A DNA stretch of 64,000 nucleotides, taken from assembly GCA_963989385.1 (NCBI GenBank), contig OZ022512.1, positions 29,967,899 through 30,031,898 on the forward strand. The letters run 5' to 3'. This DNA comes from Ctena decussata. Taxonomy: Eukaryota > Mollusca > Bivalvia > Lucinida > Lucinidae. The position numbers and the translations under genes were made by a program. Numbering within the stretch: position 1 is the first letter of the stretch; each line of letters begins with the position of its first letter. Positions 54,493 through 62,598 of this stretch are shown here, piece after piece. Under the pieces are notes generated by a model. It was not told the origin of the DNA. It worked only from the letters and a program-made list of their open reading frames with translations, and did not search any database.

Positions 54493-55803
54493 TTATGACA
54501 GAACTCAAAAAACAACAACTATAGCAAACTATTTAGCAAATTATAATCAAGTAAAATTGACTAGAACAAATCATAAGAGCTATCAACGTATGTCACAACA
54601 CAGACCAAATTGGAGTATCAAGGCCGCTGTGGGAAGTAAAATCTTCATCGGTTATTACTCCAAATAATACCAATACAGACCAAGCGAGTGGAGTACCGAA
54701 ATGAAGATTGGAAAATCAAATCAGCCGAAGATGAGGGCCATAGCCAGAATATCCCACCAAAAATAGAATTGCTCATTCAGTTCAATTGCTTAACAGAGTA
54801 TTGCATTTAATCATCAACAATATTATCGCATTACTTTGACATAAAAGACCGCATAACAATCATATGAGCATTACTTCCTCCTGCTCCTATTTTACCATCA
54901 TTCTATCGCATTACTCCTTTTTTCGCATTACTCCTTTTTTCGCACTACTTTTTTCGCATTACTATACTAAGGATTTACCGCCTTGCATTCCGAGCAGCAA
55001 CTCCTTCTAAACCACCCATGTTAAAGAATGACAGTGAAATCTACTTCCCAACAAGGTTGTTCCTGAGGACCATGCATAACTGAAGAGAATTTTGCCAAAA
55101 TCAGCAAACCTCACTGCAGAAAGAAGGTTATTCCTCAAGGACCATGCAAGGGAAGCAAACCTAAATGTCTAAATAATGTAATTTTGGCATTAGTTATCTC
55201 CCTTGATAATCATAATTCCAAGCTTAAGAAATAAAAGTATTGGACAATTAATAGCCCCCACCTTCGGCCGCTGAGAATTTTCCGCTTCCCAAACCTAGAG
55301 CGACAAGAATGTCTGTAGTTTCAACACAGGAATGTTCATGTGAAACACTTATGCTGTCCATCATGCGTAAAAGCATCATGTCAAGACTCAAAAAGCCATT
55401 GGCCGCGTGTAGTGAAGATACTGTCGCTGAACAGACAATAACTGAAACGAGAAACTAAAGGCAGTATCTGTTATAAAACTGATAAACCTGTAATATAAAG
55501 AAAAAATTAATGATAAACATCAAAATCAAATTAAAGCAACACAGGCAAGAGCATATGGGATGAGGTGGGCGGGGATTCTGAAATTGCAATAAGCTGAACG
55601 GCCGTCCTTGAATATCGGAAAGGTAGCTGACGTCATTCAATGTAAGAACAATAACTACGTACCTTACATGAAAGGTCGGTAATTTTTCGGCCATTGCATG
55701 ATTCGTCCCAATGAAATTCAAACCTCATTACGAATAACTAACATAAAGCATGTTCTGCAAAAATAACTGGGGCATTATTGCTAAAGCAATAAGCCTTTTT
55801 ATT
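54493..55803 (-). mobile_element. Non-autonomous A-X-B unit (outer)
   Basis: B is 54493-55285, X is 55286-55573 and A is 55574-55803. The left boundary is the host TTTATT at 54487-54492. The B part contains five CGCATTACT-like 9-mers (54827, 54907, 54924, 54941, 54955). A short open frame on the minus strand (55721-55455, 88 codons) starts in A and ends in X. Confidence 0.7.
55286..55573. other. 288-bp payload X of the short unit
   Basis: This sequence is shared by both short units (second copy 56597-56884) but has no counterpart in the autonomous unit. On the plus strand, opposite to the element's genes, it has a 49-codon open frame (55309-55458, starting MSVVSTQECSCETLMLS, containing MRKSIMSRLKKP). 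Nothing shows it is expressed. It may be a captured sequence or the diverged middle of another Ngaro lineage. Confidence 0.45.
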
Positions 55804-57114
55804 TTATGACAGAACTCAAAAAACAACAACTATAGCAAACTATTTAGCAAATTATAATCAAGTAAAATTGACTAGAACAAATCATAAGAGCTATCAACGT
55901 ATGTCACAACACAGACCAAATTGGAGTATCAAGGCCGCTGTGGGAAGTAAAATCTTCATCGGTTATTACTCCAAATAATACCAATACAGACCAAGCGAGT
56001 GGAGTACCGAAATGAAGATTGGAAAATCAAATCAGCCGAAGATGAGGGCCATAGCCAGAATATCCCACCAAAAATAGAATTGCTCATTCAGTTCAATTGC
56101 TTAACAGAGTATTGCATTTAATCATCAACAATATTATCGCATTACTTTGACATAAAAGACCGCATAACAATCATATGAGCATTACTTCCTCCTGCTCCTA
56201 TTTTACCATCATTCTATCGCATTACTCCTTTTTTCGCATTACTCCTTTTTTCGCACTACTTTTTTCGCATTACTATACTAAGGATTTACCGCCTTGCATT
56301 CCGAGCAGCAACTCCTTCTAAACCACCCATGTTAAAGAATGACAGTGAAATCTACTTCCCAACAAGGTTGTTCCTGAGGACCATGCATAACTGAAGAGAA
56401 TTTTGCCAAAATCAGCAAACCTCACTGCAGAAAGAAGGTTATTCCTCAAGGACCATGCAAGGGAAGCAAACCTAAATGTCTAAATAATGTAATTTTGGCA
56501 TTAGTTATCTCCCTTGATAATCATAATTCCAAGCTTAAGAAATAAAAGTATTGGACAATTAATAGCCCCCACCTTCGGCCGCTGAGAATTTTCCGCTTCC
56601 CAAACCTAGAGCGACAAGAATGTCTGTAGTTTCAACACAGGAATGTTCATGTGAAACACTTATGCTGTCCATCATGCGTAAAAGCATCATGTCAAGACTC
56701 AAAAAGCCATTGGCCGCGTGTAGTGAAGATACTGTCGCTGAACAGACAATAACTGAAACGAGAAACTAAAGGCAGTATCTGTTATAAAACTGATAAACCT
56801 GTAATATAAAGAAAAAATTAATGATAAACATCAAAATCAAATTAAAGCAACACAGGCAAGAGCATATGGGATGAGGTGGGCGGGGATTCTGAAATTGCAA
56901 TAAGCTGAACGGCCGTCCTTGAATATCGGAAAGGTAGCTGACGTCATTCAATGTAAGAACAATAACTACGTACCTTACATGAAAGGTCGGTAATTTTTCG
57001 GCCATTGCATGATTCGTCCCAATGAAATTCAAACCTCATTACGAATAACTAACATAAAGCATGTTCTGCAAAAATAACTGGGGCATTATTGCTAAAGCAA
57101 TAAGCCTTTTTATT
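55804..57114 (-). mobile_element. Non-autonomous A-X-B unit (inner)
   Basis: A copy of 54493-55803 at an exact 1,311-bp offset. Every stretch I compared was identical, including the 88-codon frame (57032-56766). Its right junction with the autonomous unit is TTTATT at 57109-57114. Confidence 0.7.
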
Positions 57115-57907
57115 TTATGACAGAACTCAAAAAACAACAACTATAGCAAACTATTTAGCAAATTATAATCAAGTAAAATTGACTAGAACAAATCATAAGA
57201 GCTATCAACGTATGTCACAACACAGACCAAATTGGAGTATCAAGGCCGCTGTGGGAAGTAAAATCTTCATCGGTTATTACTCCAAATAATACCAATACAG
57301 ACCAAGCGAGTGGAGTACCGAAATGAAGATTGGAAAATCAAATCAGCCGAAGATGAGGGCCATAGCCAGAATATCCCACCAAAAATAGAATTGCTCATTC
57401 AGTTCAATTGCTTAACAGAGTATTGCATTTAATCATCAACAATATTATCGCATTACTTTGACATAAAAGACCGCATAACAATCATATGAGCATTACTTCC
57501 TCCTGCTCCTATTTTACCATCATTCTATCGCATTACTCCTTTTTTCGCATTACTCCTTTTTTCGCACTACTTTTTTCGCATTACTATACTAAGGATTTAC
57601 CGCCTTGCATTCCGAGCAGCAACTCCTTCTAAACCACCCATGTTAAAGAATGACAGTGAAATCTACTTCCCAACAAGGTTGTTCCTGAGGACCATGCATA
57701 ACTGAAGAGAATTTTGCCAAAATCAGCAAACCTCACTGCAGAAAGAAGGTTATTCCTCAAGGACCATGCAAGGGAAGCAAACCTAAATGTCTAAATAATG
57801 TAATTTTGGCATTAGTTATCTCCCTTGATAATCATAATTCCAAGCTTAAGAAATAAAAGTATTGGACAATTAATAGCCCCCACCTTCGGCCGCTGAGAAT
57901 TTTCCGC
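57115..57907 (-). repeat. Repeat B of the autonomous Ngaro-like unit
   Basis: 793 bp equal to the B parts of both short units (54493-55285, 55804-56596). It diverges from them at TTTTCCGC (57907). It is the 3' end of the autonomous element on the minus strand, and presumably holds its 3' untranslated region and the CGCATTACT repeats. Confidence 0.75.
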
Positions 57908-57912
57908 CACAG

Positions 57913-61618: not shown

Positions 61619-62300
61619 GCCTATTAGCCGCCTCTCGAATGAGAGACATATACTTCAGCAATTCCTGTGTTTTGCCTGGAAACTTCGGCAGATACACACT
61701 GGAAAATATTAAAAAGGCATCAGTCCACCTTGAAATATTGGCAATTTTGTCAGAAACTGTTTTGGGGCGTGTTTCAAGCTGCCCCTTTTCATTTATACTG
61801 AGCAAATTACTGCCATACAGTTCAGCTAGCTCTACACCCCCCTTCAGCAACACCGCTAAGTTTATAAACTGATGGCAACGAATTTTTTGCTTAACAGATT
61901 CTGGGACATGATAAGCAATGTCATCATCCCCGCACCGCATCATTTTCGGAACACCCAGGCCACTGGCATGCTCTAAAGAATTCGAGACGGGAGCCAAAGG
62001 TTGCGCTGCCGCAATAGAGCTGCTGGTTAGATCAGTTTGATGCATTGTCTCAGAAGTGTTGGCCAAAATGTCTGTACCGAGAGACTGTTTTAGGATGTCC
62101 TCAAAATCAATAACTCGACCCTGATTACCTGTACCAGACCTTCCTGGACGGTCATCGTCCGACGGAGCCAACACCTCGACCCTTTCAAGGTCAACCGGGG
62201 TTTCCCCGGCCGCTGAACTTCTAGCTGTCTTGCGGTTTTTTGCCGCCGATTCGCTCCCTGTTGCCGATTTCCGCTTCCTACTCGCACCACGCTTAGGCAT
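61170..62300 (-). CDS. Ngaro-like ORF1: Gag-like nucleic-acid-binding protein
   Basis: An intact 376-residue frame. The N-terminus is basic (KRGASRKRK, then KNRKTAR, residues 3-27), a likely nuclear signal. The middle is helical (about 130-265). A zinc region follows: a CCCH-like finger (Cys286, Cys294, Cys299, His303) and a retroviral-type knuckle C-x2-C-x4-H-x4-C (305-318, CSVCSSPQHGRWAC). The C-terminus is rich in RG/RGG (RGSVRGYRGSLRGGRQFMRG), an RNA-binding feature. Its start follows the right-end repeat A by about 70 bp. Confidence 0.85.
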   Translation of the reverse strand: MPKRGASRKRKSATGSESAAKNRKTARSSAAGETPVDLERVEVLAPSDDDRPGRSGTGNQGRVIDFEDILKQSLGTDILANTSETMHQTDLTSSSIAAAQPLAPVSNSLEHASGLGVPKMMRCGDDDIAYHVPESVKQKIRCHQFINLAVLLKGGVELAELYGSNLLSINEKGQLETRPKTVSDKIANISRWTDAFLIFSSVYLPKFPGKTQELLKYMSLIREAANRHAGFGWRNYDEQFRLRQALQVQSWGSINSDLWLRCFSSSQASSSYTNPYSSAGSKPPPCLDFNKGACQWVVCRYTHACSVCSSPQHGRWACPGVASGSGSQGRDAHLQMPQHAFRGSVRGYRGSLRGGRQFMRGPNRGTFRGVARQSSQ

Positions 62301-62368
62301 TGCTCAATGTTGTAGAAGAAGACGAATAAAAAAGCTACAAACAAACTATAAAAATCGCAGACAAACAA

Positions 62369-62598
62369 GATTCTGAAATTGCAATAAGCTGAACGGCCGT
62401 CCTTGAATATCGGAAAGGTAGCTGACGTCATTCAATGTAAGAACAATAACTACGTACCTTACATGAAAGGTCGGTAATTTTTCGGCCATTGCATGATTCG
62501 TCCCAATGAAATTCAAACCTCATTACGAATAACTAACATAAAGCATGTTCTGCAAAAATAACTGGGGCATTATTGCTAAAGCAATAAGCCTTTTTATT
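62369..62598 (-). repeat. Repeat A (5' end) of the autonomous Ngaro-like unit
   Basis: 230 bp equal to 55574-55803 and 56885-57114. It ends in TTTATT at the crossover and has a hairpin next to it (GGCATTATTGCT / AGCAATAAGCC, 62566-62590) that may be a recombinase-binding arm. On the minus strand it contains GTAAGGTACGTAG and ends ATTGCAATTTCAG-AATC. These resemble a splice donor and acceptor, and the A/X and A/ORF sequences diverge 4 nt after that AG. Confidence 0.75.

Follow-up and report, generated by a model that had tools for sequence, protein, structure and literature searches.

Under the split direct repeat model, an internal junction in the element templates the ends that are lost in the RNA. 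Ngaro elements are drawn as A1-[ORFs]-B1A2B2 (PMC8547959, PMC9210276, PMC3783388), and contact between A2 and B2 is not given as a Ngaro requirement in the accessible parts of these papers. Amphibian Ngaros have an SGNH hydrolase ORF after the tyrosine recombinase (YR), a feature that is not universal (PMC9210276). Solo AB repeats of Ngaro elements are described in Cafeteria, where they are interpreted as possible products of recombination between the 5' and 3' repeats (PMC8547959).

Three other systems offer partial parallels. In the nematode-form Pat1 and Kangaroo, the internal repeats lie between the methyltransferase (MT) and the YR (PMC4157794), from which we deduce that A2 and B2 are apart there too; these elements belong to the methyltransferase group and their separator holds the YR, whereas the separator described below is apparently non-coding and follows all ORFs. 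Cassandra forms repeat-internal-repeat-internal-repeat arrays, and its tandem arrays are discussed as being partly a product of recombination between its own LTRs; however, it is of the LTR type, has no protein-coding capacity and forms long arrays (PMC7215508). TATE is a YR retroelement with split direct repeats, some copies of which have more complex repeat patterns. Misassembly or nested insertion was left open by its authors (PMC6681497), whereas here the order is exact and is found at two loci.

Layout and coding capacity of the element

The window, a stretch of 64,000 nucleotides, contains an element that reads in the assembled sequence, from 62598 to 54493, as A(230)-ORFs(4461)-B(793)-A-X(288)-B-A-X-B. 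Its features are as follows.

62594..62598, minus strand: left-end 5-bp core, AATAA in the window (copy comparison; putative crossover site)
62369..62598, minus strand: A1, left terminal repeat (230), same sequence as A2 and A3
57908-62368, minus strand: internal region (4461)
61170..62300, minus strand: ORF1 (376 aa), gag-like; rich in Cys and His close to its C-end by eye
59540..61618, minus strand: ORF2, reverse transcriptase with a YLDD motif (PF00078), and RNase H-like motifs
58674..59666, minus strand: ORF3, YR (PF00589)
57966..58568, minus strand: ORF4, putative GDSL/SGNH-type hydrolase (PF13472)
57115..57907, minus strand: B1 (793), by repeat identity
56885..57114, minus strand: A2 (230), by repeat identity; with B1 it makes the B/A junction CATAA/AATAA
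56868..56885, minus strand: C-rich tract at the A2/X boundary (shuffle test)
56597..56884, minus strand: first copy of X (288), spacer between A2 and B2 (window comparison and genome search)
55804..56596, minus strand: B2 (793), by repeat identity
55574..55803, minus strand: A3 (230), by repeat identity
55557-55574, minus strand: C-rich tract, second occurrence
55286..55573, minus strand: second copy of X (288), by repeat identity
54493..55285, minus strand: B3, right terminal repeat (793), by repeat identity
54488..54492, minus strand: right-end core AATAA (copy comparison)

The strand was absent from the earlier note. That note had described three units with common ends A and B, and their coordinates and lengths proved exact to the base. 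It was also right that X parts A2 from B2, that the A-X-B block is doubled and that the 288-bp X is missing from the autonomous unit: comparison of X with the A-ORFs-B part of the window gave no match. All copies of A, B and X within the array are 100% identical, and the tandem period is 1311, with an identical run at lag 1311 spanning 54487-57907.

Among the minus-strand ORFs, RVT_1 (PF00078, E 1.3e-11) and Phage_integrase (PF00589, E 8.3e-12) are over the Pfam cut-off, so that a reverse transcriptase and a tyrosine recombinase are both present in one element. ORF1 matched no Pfam family over the cut-off, and Lipase_GDSL_2 (PF13472) in ORF4 reached 30.2 bits (E 7.6e-07), below the curated cut-off of 32.9. 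ORF2 presumably includes an RNase H, which was recognized by eye from its motifs; there was no Pfam RNase H match in the ORFs. No solved structure matched the YR at E<=0.1, and the NCBIfam search gave nothing beyond weak Xer-type matches. The genome holds at least 121 scored YR matches.

The split direct repeats are ordered A1 ... B1, A2, B2, with the internal repeats downstream of the YR. On its domains and repeat layout we assign the element to the Ngaro-like YR retrotransposons, in agreement with the earlier identification. PAT/DIRS membership was rejected on the methyltransferase domain, for which the four main ORFs gave no Pfam match at E<=0.1. As in Ngaro, no methyltransferase was found and the ORFs run Gag-like, RT, YR and then a putative SGNH-type hydrolase, the last as described for amphibian Ngaros. 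Unlike Ngaro as drawn, this element has the 288-bp X between A2 and B2 and one extra A-X-B.

X and the A-X-B unit across the genome

X has at least 12 matches at at least nine loci, the window's own two counted, and A has at least 27; these genome-search counts are lower bounds. No X was found besides the 12 matches, and none outside the element family, at the sensitivity of the search. Eight of the nine X loci, the window among them, are full elements in the order ORFs-B-A-X-B with X between A2 and B2. X therefore probably belongs to the normal 3' repeat of this family rather than being the foreign middle that it had been taken for. X is 288 long in seven of these eight copies and 294 in the other, and its divergence between most copies is about that of A and B. 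In none of the eight does A2 abut B2 as in the strict Ngaro drawing.

The commonest form of the full copy is A1-ORFs-B1-A2-X-B2. A-ORFs-B-A-X-B is thus the structure of six of the eight full copies; it is not fixed, since the remaining two (the window and a second locus, C6) have two A-X-B units and the copy at C12:69.64M is an A-ORFs-B without A-X-B, its B running straight into the flank (internal region read in part). A lone A-X-B with both ends present, split by an insertion, is found at C10:30.77M. Tail-unit forms of 0, 1 and 2 and one lone A-X-B therefore exist in the family.

X looks like a non-coding spacer opening with a C-rich tract. The longest ORF touching X (ATG ORFs of at least 40 aa) is 79 aa and enters from A. 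There is no Rfam match at E<=1 across 54493-62598, and the fold of X has a z of -1.19, with 20/200 shuffles equally good. Compared with A, B, the B/A junction and the internal region, X gave nothing above 200 mononucleotide shuffles (64 to 181/200 reach the score).

Origin of the doubled tail

The usual A-X-B tail of this Ngaro-like element is present twice in tandem, probably as a result of unequal homologous recombination between direct repeats. B1 would mispair with the terminal B on sister or homologous chromosomes, and a crossover inside B would yield one product that gains an A-X-B and another that loses one. Recombination of A1 with A2 would leave a lone A-X-B. As the window copies show no differences, the doubling in the window can be neither dated nor assigned to homologous recombination or to the YR from its sequence.

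The second doubled locus, C6, whose ORFs are frame-broken, is informative. There A2 equals A3 (232/232), X1 equals X2 (288/288) and B1 equals B2 (805/805), whereas between A1 and A2 there are 8 mismatches plus a gap of 2 bp, and between B1 and B3 3 mismatches in 663. With the core base left out, the contrast is 7/229 versus 0/1325 (Fisher p 1.4e-6), which indicates that the extra unit is younger than the divergence of A1 and A2. The alleles T201 and A365 are common to B1 and B2 of C6 and absent from B3 and from 13 other aligned B copies; a single copy represented the three identical B repeats of the window in that alignment. Since B2 carries the private alleles of B1 and not those of the terminal B3, homologous recombination within B is pointed to. 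The difference between B1 and B3 (3/663) is below that between A1 and A2 (7/229; p 0.004), so one crossover is not the whole history. Alternatively, a YR event may have been followed by gene conversion of B2 from B1, or A1 and A2 may already have differed when the element integrated. X is identical between the two doubled arrays; this identity was rejected as a meaningful signal because other copies differ from both by equal numbers, as is expected if X is ancestral.

It is less plausible, and in our view unlikely, that the YR made the array, either by releasing an A-X-B circle at B/A junctions and inserting it at B1/A2, in the copy it came from or in a different one, or through a circular pre-integration form with two A-X-B units. 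Every B/A joint in the full copies compared is CATAA/AATAA, and such exact joints are compatible with both homologous recombination and the YR. The lone A-X-B and the A-ORFs-B are the two products expected from YR resolution at B1/A2, and the YR ORF of the window is open. However, a terminal unit added by the YR should carry B3 alleles, whereas B2 of C6 follows B1 at two informative sites, and the lone A-X-B is rare (1/9 X loci). 

In the preferred explanation, the YR would insert the element into a site resembling WAYAA by crossing over within the short core of the B/A junction; the internal B1/A2 junction would be the template restoring the ends missing from the RNA. Among the close copies compared, the right end is CATAA/AATAA in all nine intact right ends, and the left-end core differs from AATAA in 7/10.

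Duplication of one A-X-B block by the assembly is very unlikely: the window copies are indeed 100% identical, but the doubled array at C6 has internal differences (B3) and other flanks, and 1311 bp is a short period if the assembly was built from long reads. Least probable of all is the small parasite of the earlier note, a separate non-autonomous family that uses the recombinase of its helper and integrates beside it, since it would require multiple independent lone copies and only the one at C10:30.77M, which is also expected from recombination of A1 with A2, has both termini outside a full element, the other X loci having a fixed order.

The C-rich tract and related families

F7 is a divergent family (YR 45% identical) and the only other one read from B1 into B2. 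Its B1 and B2, with starts 1360 apart, are identical over the 402 nt compared and both open GCGGAAAATTCT, as in the window. A non-repeated stretch lies between the A2-like start and B2, with the A/X border placed by resemblance only and A1 unread. X has one local match to F7 at ATACTGCC...TTTCAG, reached by 1/300 shuffles. The match to the F1 stretch is borderline (12/300), and those to F8 and F11 are not significant (118/300 and 118/300). For A, the comparison with F7 was reached by 1/300 shuffles and that with F8 by 99/300. No further B follows the B of the single F1 copy read (3.4 kb, L074), and no B-like repeat was seen in 1.1 kb of F10 (L076), which was left out of the C-tract test.

The C-rich tract at the A2/X boundary of the window was reached in 0/500 shuffles and has counterparts in three of the four other families tested, by a statistic picked after the tract had been seen. 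It is polypurine on the opposite strand and has the look of a GC/CACCC box. It is conceivable, though doubtful, that an undescribed control segment lies between A2 and B2 in Ngaro-like elements, with the tract at or near the A2/X boundary serving as a replication or transcription signal; A-X-B would hence persist as a unit, itself copyable as a YR module. Among the papers listed in a literature search on polypurine or polypyrimidine tracts in reverse transcription, none was on Ngaro, and we do not claim that such work is absent from print. A hairpin just inside A was rejected as a general feature because of the shuffle counts across families (window 3/500, F7 2/500, F11 20/500, F8 169/500).

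To our knowledge, the replication of Ngaro elements has been inferred mainly from their anatomy. The copies described here show that a spacer may separate A2 from B2, unlike in the published drawing. In this family the spacer opens with a C-rich tract, of which other sampled families have counterparts, and copies both gain and lose tail units. The C6 alleles provide a way to distinguish host recombination from the action of the recombinase by sequence alone. The element is thus a Ngaro-like element with a spacer and a variable number of tail units.

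Structure of the array and its tail unit

An earlier note described an Ngaro-like element joined to two further units that share its ends A (230 bp) and B (793 bp) and enclose a 288-bp middle, X. This array was borne out exactly: all copies lie on the minus strand, and their 100% identity far exceeds chance.

Parts of the window element in element order (every repeat is identical to the other copies of the same part)
62598-62369, minus strand, A1
62368-57908, minus strand, ORF region
57907-57115, minus strand, B1
57114-56885, minus strand, A2
56884-56597, minus strand, X, first copy
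56596-55804, minus strand, B2
55803-55574, minus strand, A3
55573-55286, minus strand, X, second copy
55285-54493, minus strand, B3

The ORFs are gag-like (376 aa), RT (692 aa), tyrosine recombinase (YR, 330 aa) and GDSL-type hydrolase (200 aa; match below Pfam's cut-off). Tandem repeats of ~145 bp, 75-100% alike to reference copies, lie immediately beyond the A1 end at 63030-63977.

The idea that X is foreign was not supported. Searching the 1.66-Gb genome, in which the window is C15:29967899-30031898, gave at least 12 matches to X at nine loci (counts are lower bounds and include the window's own two), and at eight of the nine X lies between A2 and B2 within full elements. Thus, X is a regular component of the 3' repeat in this family. 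Six of these eight carry a single A-X-B (C9:42.60M, C2:83.07M, C11:52.69M, C10:55.66M, C9:87.89M and C65, where B's first 92 bases are repeated as well); the window and C6:23.00M, whose final B is cut at 651, carry two. The ninth locus, C10:30.77M, consists of A-X-B alone; its outer ends are intact, and an insertion splits its B (B 1-75, then B 61-793 ~5.9 kb farther on). At this locus (L026), B 61-75 forms a 15-bp duplication on either side of the split, and a 362-bp piece (X end, B 1-75 and insertion start) is repeated at 100%. C12:69.64M, read over A, the first 1.5 kb of the internal region and B, is A-ORFs-B with B running out into flank; the YR search found its YR. The terminal B2 is 48 bp longer than B1 at L022 and has a 116-bp insertion, partly a repeated B piece, at L023, with no other mismatches.

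PMC8547959 gives the Ngaro order as A1-[ORFs]-B1A2B2 and compares isolated AB repeats to solo LTRs; PMC3783388 gives A-pol-B-A-B. Nematode-form Pat1 and Kangaroo carry internal repeats between MT and YR (PMC4157794), so separation of A2 and B2 is in itself not new. Other papers cover Xenopus Ngaros with split direct repeats and SGNH (PMC9210276), complex repeat patterns in TATE (PMC6681497), and tandem arrays and LTR recombination (PMC7215508); the passages of PMC12477816 hold nothing further on structure.

Origin of the doubled unit

Because the window copies are all identical, its doubling gives nothing datable. At C6:23.00M, A2 and A3, X1 and X2, and B1 and B2 are identical pairs, whereas A1 is set apart from A2 by 8 mismatches, of which one is in the core, and a 2-bp gap. 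With the core base left out, 7/229 differences between A1 and A2 compare with 0/1325 in the duplicated parts (p = 1.4e-6), so the extra A-X-B probably postdates the divergence of A1 from A2, unless these two were unlike from the outset.

B1 and B2 of C6:23.00M share two private alleles, T201 and A365, missing from B3 and from the other 13 B copies in the alignment; one further allele is private to B3. If YR had added a terminal unit, that unit would be expected to carry B3's alleles; a crossover within B, left of position 201, would give the pattern observed. B1 and B3 are closer (3/663 differences) than A1 and A2 (p = 0.004), which counts against this simple reading; B may have gone through more than one round of homogenisation.

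The C6:23.00M ORFs are frame-broken. Mismatches between this locus and the window number 6 in A, 9 in B and 74 internally, and the internal-region tree pairs the window with the one-unit copy C11:52.69M, not C6:23.00M, with weak support (0.85). From these differences and this placement, the two doublings look like separate events.

Element ends and divergent relatives

Among close copies, the right end is CATAA|AATAA at 9/9 intact ends, AATAA being the 5-bp core at the B|A junction, and the left-end five positions depart from AATAA in 7/10 (AACAA in three, TATAA in two, two others). We infer from sequence a crossover within the core, with the left core copy derived from the target. Right flanks of the C12:69.64M and C10:30.77M insertions both go on as AATAACAAGT, which could be chance or target preference. 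Window A1 (62590-62566; 3/500 shuffles) and the divergent YR family F7 (L075, from 612; 2/500) each have a hairpin starting 8 nt in from the beginning of A; it is weaker in family F11 and not significant in F8. It may act as a signal for the recombinase or at the RNA level.

Genome search gave 27 matches to A and at least 44 to B (40 of 55 candidates scored). These matches include older relatives at C3:111.9M, C2:97.04M and C8:36.59M, and in the parts of them that were read no A2-X-B2 was found. C3:111.9M was covered at its two ends, A (90%) and B (78%), which lie ~13 kb apart; the latter two, short pieces, are interpreted as internal deletions. C6:95.53M retains the internal region and B up to position 776.

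The YR search gave 121 scored matches among 624 candidates, and the best outside the family, among those scored, had 53% identity. Five YR families were sampled in part, one copy each. In F7 (C3:63.95M, YR 45%, 1.8 kb read), B1 and B2 start 1360 apart, are identical across the 402 nt fetched, and each open with GCGGAAAATTCT, as does window B; between them lie an A-like start (1/300 shuffles) and non-repeated sequence. For F8 and F11, 1.1 kb each was read. A second B was not seen in 3.4 kb of the one F1 copy, and the F10 copy read gave no structural information. L078 (C16:27504900-27506000) has a 325-nt exact repeat at 776-bp spacing, 3' of a YR of 33% identity, with a C-rich run directly ahead of the second copy. 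RVT_1 gave 150 scored matches of 28,771 candidates genome-wide, with nearly equal scores, several in open frames that each span exactly 1,021 codons; these are probably an abundant, recent retroelement of a different kind.

The C-rich tract of the spacer

The 18-mer with greatest C minus G was compared with 500 shuffles, a statistic picked after the tracts were seen. In the window it falls on the A2/X border (0/500 reach its score). It is also outstanding in F7 (0/500) and F8 (1/500), 3' of the A-like start, and in F11 (7/500), directly ahead of the second repeat copy. The F1 stretch had no such tract (346/500), and no A2 was seen there either. Because the statistic is post hoc, the families were hand-picked with F10 left out, and A1 does not fix where A gives way to X in F7, F8 and F11, the recurrence of a C-rich tract in these three families is a lead, not a test.

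In conclusion, the window feature is real and mostly ordinary: an Ngaro-like family with a spacer and a varying number of tail units. Its remaining interest lies in the C-rich tract of the spacer and in the allele test for the mechanism by which split direct repeats change in number.
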